From Nannochloropsis salina CCMP1776 (taxonomy: Eukaryota; Sar; Eustigmatophyceae; Eustigmatales; Monodopsidaceae), in contig SDOX01000122.1 of assembly GCA_004565275.1 (NCBI GenBank), forward strand, positions 960,279 through 1,024,278: a stretch of 64,000 nt of DNA. The letters run 5' to 3'. Below, piece after piece: positions 37,354 to 46,831 of this stretch. The stretch's first letter is position 1. Every line of letters begins with the position of its first letter. The translations under genes and the position numbers were made by a program. The notes below the pieces were generated by a model. That model was not told where the DNA came from, did no database searches, and worked only from the letters and a program-made list of their open reading frames with translations.

Positions 37354-38191
37354 TTACAACTCCTCCTTCTCGCCCTCCATTCTTCCCACGCTCCCTTCTT
37401 CCATGAACTCCAGGGCATTCCCATCCAGATCCCGACAGAACACCGCGCGTCGCCCGGATTTACTCATGGTAAAAGGCACGCCTTCCTCTGTTAGCCTCGC
37501 CATCAGCGGATCGATGTTGTCGACCGTGAATGCCACATGCCGGTCTCGTCCTCCATGCTCCGGCCTCCCTCTCGTAGGATCGGGGTTGGGTAATTCCATT
37601 AAATGGATCTGTTGGGCACCACCACGCACAAAGGCCCCCGGGAAAGGGAGGGTGGAGGGGCGCAAATGTGTGTCGTCCTCAAAGCCGAGGACGTCCAGGT
37701 AGAATCTCTTCACGAAAATGTGGGGGCAAAGATCCGTGGAGGGATTATGTGAGACAGACAACATCTCTAACAACGCCAAAACACGCAACACTAGCAACGG
37801 CAGGGGAAAGTTCCTTTGAATTTGAAGACAAGATAAAGGTAAATTTTGCTACGCAGAGCGCACTCCGTAATGTTGTTGCAGTCGTGCATCACGTGCCTCT
37901 AAAATTGATCCCGTGAAAGTAGAAGCCCGGACATATGGTGTCGTATCTTCCTGTCTTGAGATCTTTCCTCCCCGATCTCGTTATCTACACACTCTTTACA
38001 TTTTTATCTGGACGTACCATGGACGATTGTGTGTCCGAGACGAGAATGCCCGCGTGCGCAATACCACCAAAGACCGGCTTGGGTGACTTGACAGACATGG
38101 ACAAGACGAAGCCATCCGTGGAACGTGAGACGAGTAGGGAGCAGACGCCAAAGAACGTGAGCAGCGGAGGTATGCTATGCAGGATGGGCAT
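37354..38191 (-). CDS. VOC/glyoxalase-fold protein with signal sequence
   Basis: Two exons: 38191-38018 and 37707-37354, phase 0, about 175 residues. Splicing joins GIAHAGILVSDTQSSM to RFYLDVLGFEDD, restoring the opening beta-alpha-beta unit of the vicinal-oxygen-chelate fold, which supports the 310-base intron. Candidate metal ligands are His in IAHAG, Glu in HLMEL, His in DRHVAF and Glu in ALEFME, the order used by glyoxalase I and ring-cleavage dioxygenases. The N-terminus (MPILHSIPPLLTFFGVCSLLVSR) is hydrophobic and looks like a signal peptide, so the protein enters the secretory system or, in an alga with a secondary plastid, the plastid. The specific reaction is not readable. The intron donor is GTACGT. 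The neighbour COQ10 is convergent. Confidence 0.75.
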
Positions 38192-38689: not shown

Positions 38690-41285
38690 TCAACACCATT
38701 TAATCCTATTCCCGACTTTATATCTCACACAAGCCAAGACACCACCAGATAAAATAAAACTCCAAAGCCAAAACCACAGGTACCCATACTCCCACGACAA
38801 TTCAGGCATGCTGGGGTCCCCCTGATTGGTTTGAAAATTCATCCCGAAGACTCCGGCCAGGAAGCTAGCCGGGGTGAAAATGCTCGTGATGATCGTGATA
38901 AACAGCAAGATCTCATTGATCCGTTCCTCTCGATGGTTGTGAGCCTCGTCAATTATGCTCTGGGCCATGTTCGACAGACCTGACAAGCCATCCAAACAAC
39001 GTTCCAAATGGTCGTCCACGTCTTGATAGTAAAGCTGAAGCTCCGTCGGCGCGATGCGTATCAGCTGTCGGATAATAGGTTTCGAAAGTGCCACCCGCCG
39101 CTGTAGCCAGAGCAAATCCAACTTGGTGTCCATGACCATCTTTGTCCTGCCTTTCCCGAAATTGGCCCCGCTTTGGTGCAGCATGTCTTGAAAATACGAG
39201 ACTCTGATCTGATACGCCTCGACTATGGGTACCAACCGGTCCACGTTATAATCGAGGATGGAATGAAGCAACCAGTGCGCGCTGTTCCCCTCCACGGTGC
39301 CTCTGGTGTGATACATGCCCTCGGCCACTTCGAGCATCACGTGGATGTCGAACGTGTCCTCTCTGTCCACCGCGAAGGGCAAGGAGGTGTCGTGCGTGGC
39401 TGCGTGGTCAAAAAGAACGTCCTCCTCCCCGCCTTCCTCCGGATGCTCGACAGGCATGGAGGTGTCGATAACTTGGTCCTCCCAGGTACTCTCCTCGTGT
39501 CCTGAAAGCTGTGGGGGGGCGTCGGTCACCCCGCCTTGGCCATTCATGGCTGTGCTCTTGGCAAATGAGACCTTTTGGACCATGCCCATGGCGTCTTGCT
39601 GGCTGGCATCGAGTTTCCCGTGCAGGATTGTCGCCCCTGGTCTCCGCTCGTTCTCACGGTCGTCTAGCGAGGTGCTGCCTTGGACTGTCTTTCCTTGTTG
39701 TGGGGAGGGACGTTCGGGGGCCTGTTGCGGGGGCGGCAACAGGCCCAGGCTCTTCTGTGTTTCCACCGGTATCATCGAGCCCATCCGCCTGAATGACAGG
39801 GGCGGAGGGACAGACAGGTGCTCAGCACCCTTCCTCCGCGTCCCCGACTGTATTCGTTCCGAGAGGGGGCGTAAGACACGTGTGGACGGCGTAGATGGTG
39901 TCGTGCCCCCCAGCACCGACACCGTCCTCCGCATCGACATGCGGGTGCCAGTTTTGTTGTTGACGGCTCGCCAAGGGGTACGGATGTTGATCACCGCGTT
40001 GTCGTTCTTGGGCGGGGCGGTGGAGAAGATTCCCCCCGTGGACTCCTCCAGCATGATAGGGAAAGGCCGTTTCCGTCGCCCTAATCGGTCGGTGCTCACC
40101 CCGACCACGTCGTGATTCTCCGCCAGCCAGGCTTTCAGGGCCCTTTCCGTCTCCCGTGCCAGGCGCAGAGTGGAGACAACGATGAAATAATTCCCTCCCT
40201 GGAGGGTCATTTTCGGCTTCTGCGTCTCCAAGCGGAGCACATCCTCCAAATGCAGACTGTGAATCCGGTACTTCACAGCGAGGCGCAAAATGTTGATGTA
40301 GTCGTGGGACTCGACCTGATGATCGTGGAAAGAGGGATGGAAAGTCAGGTGAGCTCATCGATCGCAACTTTTGTGCGCAGAAGACATGGACATTGCCCGG
40401 CGACATTGTGGTGGTAGGGGTTCCTGCCTGTAGGCTTCTGTCTAGCAGGGTGTTCATGGCGTCCGCCACACTCGATCAAGCCTACTGTGCCCTTAAAATA
40501 CCCAACATGTGAGAAGAAATGCGTCCGCATGTTTTTGGGGGGCTCACCGTTATCCAATTTAACAAAGTCTCGGGCGCCTGCCGACCCAGGAAAAAATTTC
40601 GAAACCGGTTTCCTTCTGACAAGTCTCGCTTGTACATTTGGTTACGCGTGAAATCGAAGACTTTCATCAGCAAGCTTTCGTCCAATCCCAGGTTTCCCAG
40701 CATGGAATGCTGCTGATTGGTCATCTTACTCCCTGCAGGACCAAGTGGAGGAGGGGCCCGGGAGGCTGCATGCTCCCCGTCACTTGCCTCTGCCATCGCA
40801 CCCCCGACTCCGTCACCGGTCCTCGCATATGAAGATTCCAATGAGTGATCTACCAAAGGTGGCAACAAAAGTTCTAATTTCAAACGTCGAAGCACGGCAC
40901 CAAAGGTCTCTTGAGTCACGAAGCCAGTGGCGTCCTCTGAAGACGACGTGGCTCTCCATAGTGCCTCTAGCGCAGGCAGGTCACTTGGAAGACTATTGCC
41001 GTTAAATGTGATTAAACATCTATTCAGACCCTCAGTGAACTGTGGGCGGCTTAGGTTTCCTGTTTTGTCGCGATCAAGTACATTAAAGGCTTTGACGATT
41101 GCTTCTTCTGAGGAGTCAACCCTCCTATGAATCCCCGGCAGCAAGCTTCCTTCAAGGCTCGCTTCGTCCACAAGATCAAGCCAAATGTATTCAGGTATTC
41201 TGGACATGTCCACAGCATCCGAGACTGTGGATGTAGCGTCCCGGTCGTTCTTGTTTGAGGGTGCGGCTTTAGATATTGACGGCAT
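38690..41285 (-). CDS. CorA-type magnesium transporter with EF-hand region (CorA-1)
   Basis: Two exons: 41285-40548 and 40315-38690, phase 0, giving 787 residues. The frame is open to 41348 without another ATG, so a short upstream exon is possible. The C-terminus is a canonical CorA pore: a long stalk helix, TM1 ending in LAGVFGMNF with the GMN selectivity motif, and TM2 (YGYLWFWLWSFILSGGVLACV). The cytosolic part has the CorA alpha/beta domain (KYRIHSLHLEDVLRLE) interrupted by about 200 low-complexity residues. The N-terminal 150 residues contain VKAFNVLDRDKTGNLSRPQF, an EF-hand with Asp, Asp, Thr, Asn and Ser at loop positions 1,3,5,7,9 but Gln at 12, followed by a weaker second EF-hand-like unit (DATGFVTQETF). 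CorA proteins carry magnesium or other divalent cations into cells or organelles. The EF-hands suggest calcium-controlled gating; that is inference. Divergent from its paralogue at 41596. Confidence 0.85.
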
Positions 41286-41595
41286 TGGGGATGGGCCGCC
41301 GGGGCCGTTCCGGAGGAGGTGGTTGACCGGAGTTGAATGGGAGGACACTCCTGTATGGGAATCGCAACGTCAAGTGTATGACATACTCTTCAAGGTTTGC
41401 TTACAATGGGTGTGGCAATGTGACAGTACAATCCGTGGGGGTAACCCCATTCTTCGGTCAAAAGGCGGTGTAATTATGAGGCACAGAGCTTGCGGATGAA
41501 ACCGTTACGCACTCTCTGCAACCCTGGCAACAGGTGTGAAAGCCACTCATTTGCCTGCCTAGCTCACCAGCGTTTTCATTTTGAAAGACAGGATC
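41286..41595. promoter_or_regulatory. Bidirectional promoter region of the CorA pair
   Basis: About 310 bases between the start codons of the two divergent CorA paralogues, holding both promoters. The open frame of CorA-1 runs 63 bases into it. No named element recognised. Confidence 0.45.
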
Positions 41596-44464
41596 ATGTC
41601 AGACTCAGACCAATATTCGAGAGAAATGCTGGAGCAAGCTCTTCTGGATTCATTGCAAGATAGGAGCCCTGTTATGCCGCCGCCGGACCCCGCCCCCCAA
41701 CAATCCGACTCAGACGAAGACGGTGTAGAATGGGAGGAGCGACTATGGAGAGAATTACCACAGGAATTATGGGATAAAGTTGTGATGCGAAATGGCGTGC
41801 CTGGCTTACACGACAGTAGGGCTATCTGCAAGACCTTGATTGAAGCTTTATATGACCCCCGCATTCACAAGGTACGGTCTCGTCGGTCTGGAAAAGGCTG
41901 ATTTGGCCTGAAAGGCTGGCCCCTCCGGCTTTTTTACTTCTTTTCTCCACCACCCGTCCAAAATGCGCCGCAAACGCTTTTTCAAATGCTGTTAGCTATG
42001 AACCCATCCCTGCCTTTGTTTTCCCTACAGTTTTGGATGTTGACGTATTGATTATTGTAGGCTTGTACACCTGATCACGGCTCTCCTGCTCCCAAGGCAG
42101 GAGAACATCGAATGCAATTCGCGACTCAGTCCGTCACGAAAGCTATTGACAGTTCTTTTTCTCGGGTTGGAGACCTCTGACAGGCGATTGTGTGTATAAT
42201 CTCTGCAAATTTCTCAGTACATGACTGATTTTTGCTGCCGTCACTCGCCAACCTTTCTGAATTTGATTGCACTAATGCTAGCTTTCCCAACATCCCGAAC
42301 CACAGCATGTAGACGTGACTAAGGACGGGCTGCGGCGATTCTTTGAGGCCTTGACCACCCACTCGGACCATGTGCTGCACTCCCACGAGCTGCAGGAAGC
42401 ATTTCAACGCACCTTGAAAGATTTTGGCGTGTGGGAAGGTGAGCGGCCGGAATTCCGACAATATTGGAAGAAGACCTGGGCGGAAATGTTGCTTGTCCTG
42501 ACCCGTGTCGTGCACGGGGAGAAAAGCTCGGGGTCGGCGGGGGGCGAGGCCCGGCGTCAGGGGGATACTTTCTGCTTCGGAGCTTTCGCGGGATTGCTCC
42601 GAAGGCTCAAATTAGAGTTGGCTTTGCGGGTCTGGGAAAAGTCCATGGGACCCAGAGTCATGTCGTTGGCCTCGCGTCGGTCCATCGTGGAGATTGATAT
42701 CGACGAGGGGAAGCGTGGTCGCGGTGGAAGCGGCGAACAGGGGGGCAATGGCCAGGAAATACCGGAAATACCGGGAATAGCGGATGGGAAATGGCCCCGA
42801 CGGTTGAGCGCCTTGTACAATTTGGAAGAGGAAGAAGTGGTTTTGAAAACCTACGTCTGGAACGCCCGCCGGGTCCAGGGACTGGACGTGACGCGTCGGA
42901 ACATGCGAGATTTCTTCCTGGGGCACCGGGATCCAGAGTGGCGGGTGCGGTGGGTGATTGCCGACTGGTCAGACAGGGCCAACATCATCCGCCTGAGTAT
43001 CAAGTACCGCTTCCACCCGTTACATTTGGAAGACGTGCTCAAGCTGGAGCGGCAGCAACCTCGCTTTCTCAAGTACGGAGGTCATTATTTTCTTATCTTG
43101 CCCTTGTTGCGCCTGGTCCGGGATGCCGCGGAAGCCAAAGGCGAGCACAGCACCCGTACCACCCCCACCAGCCTCCCTGACCACGAGACCCCATCCAAGA
43201 AAGAGGACAGGTGGAAAGCAGCCGCGTCACACGACTTCGCGGACATTGCCCTCGAAACCTCGCGTTTGGCGATTTTTGCCGCCGGCCCCCCCCATTTTGA
43301 CACCATCATCACCATCCACGGGGCTTGGCAACGCGTCCGCAACAGGTGCTGCTCCCTGGAACCCCCAACGTCCAACGAGTCGGTTCCCGGGAAACGGAAC
43401 GTCTTTGAACGGATGACCGCCCCGGTGCCCATCGACACAGCAGCCTGCGCGGCCATCCCCATGGAGGCGGCTCCCTCCCTTGCCTGGACACACGACACCT
43501 TCTCCACCCCCTCCATTCCCCCTCTCCCGGGGGACCTCTCTTCTGCACCGCGGTCGGGAGACAAGCCTCATGCTTTGAATCCAGAAGATTCGACCCCCCG
43601 GCCCATGGGTCCTACCAGCGTCTTGGGCGCTGCCTTCCGCCTCCTCCATGAGGACTACAGCTCCGTGAGACATGGAAATTCGAATTGGATGTTGCACACG
43701 ATACTCGAAACCATCACTAAGATGATTATTCCCATCATGGCCTTGTATGAAACTCGGCTTCTCGCTTTTCAGAGGGATCTGAACGGGCCGGACGCGCCGC
43801 GAATGCGTGAGCGTCTGAGCAAACCCATTATGGACGTGAAGCACGACTTGATATCGCTGCAACAACGCATAAAAAGCATGCTTCCCGTGCTTCGGGGCCT
43901 GATCAGTGAACCGAGCTTGCGGGAGGACGAAGCGCTTTTTTATATCCAGGGGGTTCACGACGATTTGCACGTGCTCTACGATGATATCAACACCATGTTG
44001 GTCCTGGCGCAAAGCTTGCTGGACGAAAGCAAGTACTTGAAGGATGATACCCGGAACGAGGCCTTGAAGCTCTTCGCCGTCGTCACGGCGTTGTTTTGTC
44101 CCTTACAATTTATCGCGGGCTACTTCGGGACTAATTTTGTCGGTAAGGCTCGCGCCTGGCCACGGGCAGCGGGAAGGATCTGTCGGTCGTTTGGGAAGTC
44201 GTTAGAGAGGACCTTAATTACATCTTTGTGGCATACGAAGTTACATGGAGGGAGTTCGTCGGCAAGCATTCCGTGTTGGTCACTCGTTGCGACTCACGCG
44301 TCCTAAAATTCCCCCCTCGGCATCTATCCACAGACGTGCACACAGGACGCTCGACAATACCGTTAATGAACCACCCCGATGGACCTCTTTTCTTTTGGCT
44401 GATATGCCTTGTGCTGACTGCGTTCTTTTTGGCGTACATTCGTTACAGCCGGCGGTGGATTTAA
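41596..44464 (+). CDS. CorA-type transporter paralogue with GTN in place of GMN (CorA-2)
   Basis: Three exons: 41596-41871, 42306-44142 and 44334-44464, about 747 residues. The last acceptor could instead be at 44345 (four residues fewer). It is clearly a paralogue of CorA-1: LRRLKLELALR, MRDFFLGHRDPEWRVRWVI, KYRFHPLHLEDVLKLE and the same low-complexity insertion site. The pore motif after TM1 reads GYFGTNF, so the Met of the GMN filter is replaced by Thr, and the loop to TM2 (PLFFWLICLVLTAFFLAYI) is longer than in CorA-1. The region matching the CorA-1 EF-hand (RIHKHVDVTKDGLRRFFEAL) has lost the loop ligands. GxN variants with other middle residues are known in distant CorA relatives, with altered ion selectivity. 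Function as a divalent or other cation transporter is likely; ion unknown. Confidence 0.82.
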
Positions 44465-44991: not shown

Positions 44992-46831
44992 TTAGGCAGA
45001 GGACGCCGCCCCCTCCCCCCCCCCGCCTCCGCCCTCTCTCGCATGCCCGGCATAAACCATTTTTTGTGCCCGTCGAAAGAGACTGTCCACCACCATGCCC
45101 AGATTGCCCACCAATTCCAAGCCGTGGGAGAAGGTTTTGTCCAACGTAGATCGTTCGTAGACGAGCAATTGTCCTTTTCCTTGGTCCAGGGTGCCATGAA
45201 GCTTATCGTCCAGGATCATCTGCGAGAGTTTCCTCTCCACGCTCTTCTGAGGAAGGTTGATCAGAGTGGCCACGTGCTCGATCTCCACGCACGAGAAAGG
45301 TTCGATGATTTTCAACAAATTTGATTCCAGGAGCTGCTCGTAGACGATATGGACGTGGTGTGTGAGCAGCAAATCCTGGGCGAGCACGCCCCCGTAGGTC
45401 TTCCGGGCCGCATCGAAGGCCTCCAAACTCCTTTCCTTGGCCGCGGCGGCAATGGCAATCAGCGCATTCATCCCGTCCCCTGCGTATTTCAAACCGTGCT
45501 TGCTCGTCACTGCCGAGACGTCCTGAGGGGCACCCTGCAGCACCAGGCAAAGCATCATGTATTCCAAGCATTTCGGCGCCCGCAAGTCCGATAAAGAATC
45601 GAAGGCCTCGAAAGCTTCCAAAAAGTACGAATGGGCGGTTTTGTAGTCCCCTTCCTCGCAATGCAGCACCCCAGACATCTGATCCAGCTCCGCTTGCATA
45701 GCAGGCACCACATAGATGCTGTTCCCGGCGGTGCGGGCGGCCGTAAGCGCAGCCTTGGCCTTGGGCAGGTTCCGAAGGGCGTGATCGATCCTGGCTTCTA
45801 CCAAATGGGTCTCCACCAAGAGCTGCTTGTCGTCGAATTTCTTGAGTTCCCGCAACAGCTTGCTGATCAAGGCCAGAGCGCCTGAATAGTCCGCGCGTGC
45901 GTACAATAAGGTGGCGAGGCGGGATTCAATCCGTTGCCGGAGGAAGGTTCGTTTCTGGGCAATGCACCAGGCCACAACCTGAATAAGATAATAAAACAGT
46001 TAGCGGTGAACGCAGGGACCATTGATAGTGGAGGGCGGGAGTGAATGCCAACAAGATCAGCCCGAGCCACTACGTAGTGTCCCTGCCCGGATCAGCGGCC
46101 CGGTTCCTCTTTTCTCACCTCTCTGCAGAGATCCACCTGGAGATCGACAGAATCCGGGACTTTGGTGACGATATCAATGATCGTCCGCACAATTTTGGCA
46201 GTCTTGGCTTTGGGAATCTGGGCGAAGAAAACATCGCTGGTCTTTAAGAGCAGCATCACCTCTTGAAATTGGTGAGCATCCGCGTGTAATTTCGCCAAGC
46301 GATAGATGGCTTCTTCCTTGAGGCGTTGCGCGGCGTCGTCCTCTCGATCCGGCGTGTTAACGATCGCGTGGAAGGCAGTGATGGCTTTTGACGGGTGCGA
46401 CTGCGCGAGCTCCTCGGCGGCTTCCAAGGCCTCTTTCAAAGGGTCGGGGAGGCTTTCTTCTTCCTCCTGCGCATGAGAAATGGGGAAACAAAAAATCAAC
46501 GGGAAAAGGGGGTTGAAAATAATCAGTGGAGGTGCATCTTAACGGATGTATCAGACGACACTGTTAGAGCAGGCTGTGGGCACAGGCTTCTCCGGAAAAA
46601 AGAGGCGACACTACATGAATGTTCCGCCTAGACAGCACCTACCAGGACCCAAAAAGTTATACCTGACAAAAATTCTGGCTTGTATGCACAAATATCGAGT
46701 ACTTCGCTTTTGTCAGGGGAATGACTTACCATCGCCGCATTGACGTTCGTGGGGGCAGAGGGCTTGGGCTCTGTCGCTGTCTTGCTTTCCTCCACGCCAC
46801 CCGAAACTTCCATTGACGCAGGCGCCGTCAT
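44992..46831 (-). CDS. RPN6: 26S proteasome lid subunit Rpn6 (PSMD11)
   Basis: Three exons: 46831-46730, 46466-46119, 45978-44992, all phase 0, giving 478 residues. Core matches to Rpn6 are unmistakable: LLRELKKFDDKQLLVETHLVEARIDHALRNLPKAKAALTAART, CEEGDYKTAHSYFLEAFEAFDSL, LKYAG, and the PCI winged helix LLKIIEPFSCVEIEHVATLINLP followed by KLSQMILDDKLHGTLDQG. Rpn6 clamps the lid to the 20S core and stabilises the 26S proteasome. The first exon is a 34-residue low-complexity leader (MTAPASMEVSGGVEES). The C-terminus carries a Gly/Glu tail (REGGGGGGEGAASSA) beyond the usual end. The first exon's GTAAGT donor and the acceptor tctcatgcgcag are strong. Usual family length is about 420-435. Confidence 0.93.

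Follow-up and report, generated by a model that had tools for sequence, protein, structure and literature searches.

The window considered here is a 64,000-nucleotide stretch of contig SDOX01000122.1 of the eustigmatophyte alga Nannochloropsis salina CCMP1776, and it contains two divergently transcribed genes, termed CorA-1 and CorA-2, whose products are related to the CorA family of magnesium channels. CorA-1 (38690..41285, minus strand) encodes 787 amino acids in two exons (41285-40548 and 40315-38690) separated by an intron at 40547-40316 (GTGAGC...CATCAG). CorA-2 (41596..44464, plus strand) encodes 747 amino acids in three exons (41596-41871, 42306-44142 and 44334-44464) with introns at 41872-42305 and 44143-44333, and all three introns of the pair begin with GT and end with AG. 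The initial annotation of this stretch had described the pair without giving introns, but the pair itself is real, and the outer limits assigned to it agree with the stop codons, which end at 38690 and 44464. Its head-to-head arrangement is likewise borne out by the gene models, in which the two start codons are 310 bases apart (41286..41595), the intervening spacer being possibly a shared promoter. Both proteins match the Pfam CorA profile (PF01544, curated cut-off 27 bits) with scores of 103.2 bits for CorA-1 and 88.3 bits for CorA-2. The proposed homology of the two along their length is confirmed by two BLASTP blocks, namely a front half with 27% identity (6e-29) and a pore half with 32% identity (8e-30), which are separated by a variable insert. 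In both proteins hydropathy places a membrane helix on either side of the filter near the C-terminus, at residues 714-737 and 758-776 in CorA-1 and 677-700 and 719-743 in CorA-2.

Exon 2 of CorA-2 is open over 612 codons, whereas the longest frame in 300 base shuffles averaged 127 codons and never exceeded 255. Since the gene also has a GC content at third codon positions (GC3) of 0.68 and retains both membrane segments, CorA-2 is unlikely to be dead. A decaying gene with no current function would account for the joint loss of several motifs in CorA-2 described below, and for its branch in the phylogenetic tree (1.68), the longest of the three paralogues found in this genome. Such a history is nevertheless hard to reconcile with 747 codons free of stops, GT-AG introns, a coding-type GC3 and intact membrane helices, and we consider it highly improbable.

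The Pfam CorA search covered the whole genome (26.5 Mb in 103 contigs) and returned six matches: CorA-1, CorA-2, an MRS2-like frame on contig C29, two exons of a single gene on contig C1, and an exon on contig C46. The gene on C1, modeled with six exons and 850 residues, is a third paralogue, CorA-3, which scores 155 bits with the CorA profile and shows 28% and 31% identity over the alignment to CorA-1 and CorA-2, respectively. It combines a complete set of EF-hand ligands (DRDFDGRLSKPE) with a GMN filter and the MPEL motif. A protein search with CorA-3 as the query gave, among the best-scoring candidates, 11 matches, each falling within CorA-3, CorA-1 or CorA-2. The recurrence of the EF-hand/CorA fusion in CorA-3 therefore indicates, from sequence comparison, that it constitutes a small family in this genome, in which the sensor of CorA-1 would be a weakened copy and CorA-2 the odd member. 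The MRS2-like frame on C29 comprises 608 amino acids and has a GMN filter; no Pfam EF-hand match was found in this frame as modeled, any upstream exons apart. A short exon on C46 (G000:C46; L009 2692-2757, minus strand), which reads TQVTTLMLPAQFLTGVFGMNVR and contains GVFGMNV, probably belongs to another gene of the CorA or Mrs2 type.

Sequence and profile comparisons indicate that the N-terminus in this CorA subfamily begins with an EF-hand domain, and an EF-hand fold is predicted for it. When the three N-termini are combined in a profile, their first helix-loop-helix matches EF-hand proteins in the PDB, including the hands of calmodulin and calcium-dependent kinases (best 5.6e-7). In CorA-1 this hand is the only one with a clear Pfam match (EF-hand_6, just below its cut-off), and its loop, DRDKTGNLSRPQ (residues 71-82; 41040..41075, minus strand), is flanked by predicted helices at 50-68 and 80-95. 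Calcium is coordinated in EF-hands by the residues at loop positions 1, 3, 5 and 12, together with a glycine at position 6. The loop of CorA-3, DRDFDGRLSKPE, is complete in this respect, with Asp at positions 1, 3 and 5, Gly-6, Leu-8, Ser-9 and Glu-12; its Phe-4 departs from the PROSITE pattern, at a non-ligand position. The alignments place Thr at position 5 and Gln at position 12 in CorA-1, and the counterpart in CorA-2, TTHSDHVLHSHE (42354..42389, plus strand), retains Asp-5, Leu-8 and Glu-12 and has lost positions 1, 3 and Gly-6.

The loss of calcium ligands in CorA-2 had been proposed earlier on the basis of a different segment, HVDVTKDGLRRFF (42306..42344, plus strand). BLASTP, MAFFT and three-way alignments, together with a predicted helix (4-18 of the fragment), rule this segment out as the EF loop: it aligns with VIDVTDGRLRNLY of CorA-3 and RVDSSEEAIVKAF of CorA-1 as the helix entering the hand. 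The conclusion thus survives, while the residues cited for it do not. No EF-hand match to CorA-2 is present among the Pfam results listed, and a fold search of the PDB with the CorA-2 fragment found no EF-hand protein in the best 50 of 117 matches (best E 1.0), a weak absence because exon 1 is missing from the fragment, whose model was derived from a single sequence.

Residues of the pore are numbered here as in the Thermotoga maritima CorA (TmCorA), which is the best solved relative by profile (4.6e-28). CorA-1 has a GMN filter (38837..38845, minus strand) followed by MPEL, and CorA-2 has GTN (44127..44135, plus strand; GGG ACT AAT), with MPEL replaced by IPLM in exon 3; an ACT codon (Thr) in CorA-2 thus stands at the ATG codon (Met) of CorA-1. 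Both filters are as first annotated and, together with the loop described above, establish that CorA-2 is altered in sensor as well as filter. CorA-1 and CorA-3 retain E88, D89, D175, D179, D253, H257, T295, GMN and MPEL, with Thr or Ser at position 299 (Ser in CorA-1). CorA-2 retains E88, D89, G312 and N314 and shows the changes D175E, D179K, D253G, H257D, T295A, T299A, M313T, M318I and E320L. The Gly and Asn of the GxN motif at the end of the first transmembrane helix (TM1) are present in all three proteins, the hydrophobic middle residue being Met in CorA-1 and CorA-3, with Thr in its place in CorA-2. A study on Mrs2 reports that Mg2+ is bound by N443 of its GMN and by E449 in the loop after it, and that a triple alanine replacement of GMN or N443A impairs function (PMC11919701). 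For TmCorA, another study describes the participation of D253 in metal-dependent closure (PMC3629940).

The bearing of these changes was assessed against bacterial-type relatives. The 44 loci inspected (L010 and L019-L061) were reduced to 38 distinct relatives by dropping two with no recognizable pore (L034, L035) and four (L028-L031) that repeat L020, L026, L019 and L023. These are the best-scoring loci rather than a random sample, and 33 of the 38 belong to one phylum, five of them being named and 28 coming from the phylum of genome G001, through a search in which 121 of 193 genomes matched and loci were obtained for 30 matches. GQN without MPEL is found in 25 of the relatives and GMN in the other 13, of which 11 have an MPEL-like motif; GTN, which was looked for in other CorA proteins, occurs in none of these 38. 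Given the Gln in 25 of the 38, a hydrophobic middle residue of GxN is not a strict criterion, and the notion that a polar filter residue is unparalleled was rejected. The 25 GQN proteins (L019, L021, L025-L027, L037, L038, L040-L042, L046 and L048-L061), five of them from Myxococcus or Pyxidicoccus and 20 from others of the same phylum, form one clade in the tree, separate from CorA-1, CorA-2 and CorA-3. A polar filter residue without MPEL has therefore also evolved outside this family, in proteins whose other features appear conserved: D175, D179, D253 and H257 are kept in all 25, Thr-295 in 24 and Thr or Ser at 299 in 23, the single losses of a hydroxyl being Ala-295 in one protein and Ala-299 in two. 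In viral contigs a single bacterial-type CorA was found, in a 348-amino acid frame matching query residues 656-845, and the EF-hand region had no relative there; one scan of prokaryotic genomes gave nine loci matched within query residues 363-850, and phage records gave eight matched within residues 638-847.

The GQN clade is the main support for the view that CorA-2 is by itself a working channel of altered selectivity, favoring another divalent cation or having a lower preference for Mg2+, in which the filter was remodeled jointly with the hydroxyl rings and the conserved acids to suit another ion. The occasional loss of one hydroxyl in GQN proteins fits this view, as do the distant CorA relatives in which, according to PMC9276622, MPEL is lost and only the GxN is left, with Met, Val or Ile in the middle. 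PMC3629940 also points this way, in that the preference of TmCorA for Co2+ over Mg2+ is set by threonines of the channel. The parallel is, however, incomplete, since CorA-2 has changed D175, D179, D253, H257, T295 and T299, the very positions that the GQN proteins keep with few exceptions; these additional losses are not shared by that clade. We regard an independent channel of altered selectivity as a somewhat unlikely explanation.

A tree of 42 core sequences unites CorA-1, CorA-2 and CorA-3 in one group (support 100/100), and within it CorA-1 and CorA-2 are sisters (98/87). This is the grouping predicted by the earlier proposal that the pair arose by inverted duplication. Joining CorA-3 to either gene of the window is not rejected by the approximately unbiased test (p-AU 0.126 and 0.131), and CorA-1 and CorA-2 are among the sequences flagged in a long-branch warning from the tree program, so that a firm placement of the two as closest relatives was not upheld. 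A local inverted duplication giving rise to the pair is hence plausible but not proven.

Several known systems resemble parts of this family. TmCorA (PF01544) shares the CorA core and the two C-terminal membrane helices, and has GMN and MPEL in common with CorA-1 and CorA-3. The best-matching chain, of 351 residues, lacks an N-terminal EF-hand domain and long inserts, and differs from CorA-2, which has GTN, IPLM, D253G, T295A and T299A. The mitochondrial and plant Mrs2/MGT proteins (PF22099) are likewise channels with two transmembrane segments and a GxN motif, represented in this genome by the GMN-containing frame on C29, but in a profile search PF22099 had no match at E<=10 to CorA-1, CorA-2 or CorA-3. 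The bacterial GQN proteins share with CorA-2 a polar GxN residue and the absence of MPEL, and are set apart by Gln rather than Thr, by D253 and Thr-295 and by their separate clade. The hands of calmodulin and the calcium-dependent kinases differ in that the second hand is degenerate here and full ligands are found only in CorA-3. Saccharina japonica, a brown alga, has in Tic20 a membrane protein preceded by an EF-hand domain (PMC6720183), but this is a protein translocon and not a cation channel. Likened by description rather than by sequence, the fungal Alr1 and Alr2 are two paralogous CorA channels of eukaryotes whose N-terminus is extended, and Alr2 is described as a minor equivalent able to form heteromers with Alr1 (PMC12720413); the accessible portion of that source mentions no EF-hand. 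Together they offer an example, from fungi, of a second CorA paralogue that combines with the first and may modulate it.

An EF-hand/CorA fusion was not described among the matches listed in a literature search of titles and opening parts of abstracts, nor among those on Nannochloropsis CorA, and the available parts of PMC10371168 and PMC10284544 contain nothing on it. A survey of eukaryotic Mg2+ transporters retained GMN sequences only, and the word EF-hand is absent from its accessible text (PMC13022745). As the search covered openly accessible papers, and the sequence comparisons covered this genome together with prokaryotic, viral and phage collections and the PDB, the architecture may be catalogued already, for instance in a domain database.

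Starting from the observed gene structures, homology, residue changes and third paralogue, the best, if still tentative, explanation is that these genes form a CorA subfamily with an EF-hand and that CorA-2 has turned into a poorly conducting or regulatory partner within it. CorA-3, with full ligands and an intact filter, would form Mg2+-conducting pentamers, and the same would probably hold for CorA-1, whose filter is intact but whose loop is weakened. Binding of a cation to the EF-hand would switch the cytosolic portion between a closed and an open state. In CorA-2 the scaffold and the two membrane helices are preserved, but sensor ligands, D179, D253, the pore hydroxyls, the GMN methionine and the MPEL glutamate have been lost. 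Its most likely role would be that of a partner subunit with little or no conductance, which joins CorA-1 and reduces or adjusts flux, by analogy with the possible effect of Alr2 on Alr1 in yeast. Co-expression of the two would be favored by their head-to-head order and the 310-base spacer. A fuller scheme, in which a calcium-gated Mg2+ channel family has a graded sensor (full in CorA-3, weakened in CorA-1, and deaf in a poorly conducting CorA-2), and in which CorA-1 and CorA-2 are co-expressed from a shared promoter and co-assemble, so that subunit mixing sets the strength of calcium control over cellular magnesium, appears distinctly improbable as a whole.

A number of observations weigh against the regulatory-partner explanation, beginning with the sensor. 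All Pfam EF-hand scores of CorA-1 and CorA-3 lie below the curated cut-offs: with EF-hand_6 (cut-off 25 bits) CorA-1 reaches 24.9 bits with residues 1-146 and 19.7 bits with the whole protein, and CorA-3 only 17.2 bits, less than CorA-1 despite its full ligands. The second hand is a degenerate helix-loop-helix with no canonical ligand set in any of the three paralogues, which makes the "pair" of EF-hands initially ascribed to CorA-1 a generous term, although its first hand and Gln-12 are confirmed. The structure models, built from single sequences, have a mean predicted local distance difference test (pLDDT) score of 50.7 and 66.3; a helix-loop-helix is predicted at low confidence, and the EF-hand is conserved in one of the other two paralogues. 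Further, an EF loop with Gln-12, as in CorA-1, is expected to bind calcium poorly and with lower affinity. These features, along with ligands that are complete in just one of three paralogues, would also suit a region that is a structural or Mg2+-binding module, an inherited fusion slowly decaying and without calcium gating. That possibility we hold to be unlikely, for the ligands of CorA-3 are all canonical at 28% and 31% identity to its paralogues, which suggests that the loop has been maintained there. Because the loop of CorA-1 is compromised, CorA-3 is a better candidate than CorA-1 for a putative control of Mg2+ flux by calcium.

On the side of the pore, CorA-2 still has the Gly and Asn of GxN, and, since a clade with GQN and no MPEL exists, it may conduct; that clade also counts against taking GTN alone as a loss of function. 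At 28 columns conserved in at least 90% of the 38 relatives and TmCorA, departures number 16 in CorA-2, 13 in CorA-1 and 10 in CorA-3, and Gln-305 is common to CorA-2 and CorA-3. The overall divergence of CorA-2 is thus not much above that of its sisters, and it is the location of its changes that is distinctive.

The pair is adjoined on the side of CorA-2 by a partial coding region for an RPN6-type protein of the 26S proteasome (44992-45699, minus strand; PCI 66.1 bits, RPN6_C_helix 32.9 bits), and a glyoxalase-family open reading frame (37354-37764, minus strand; PF00903, 44.5 bits) lies downstream of CorA-1.

Should the pore in this family be gated by the EF-hand, calcium signals would be coupled directly, within one molecule, to the uptake of magnesium. 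CorA-2 would in turn represent a natural variant altered at multiple sites, namely the sensor, the filter, the pore hydroxyls and the conserved acids, and could be used to determine what a CorA subunit can do without in a mixed pentamer.

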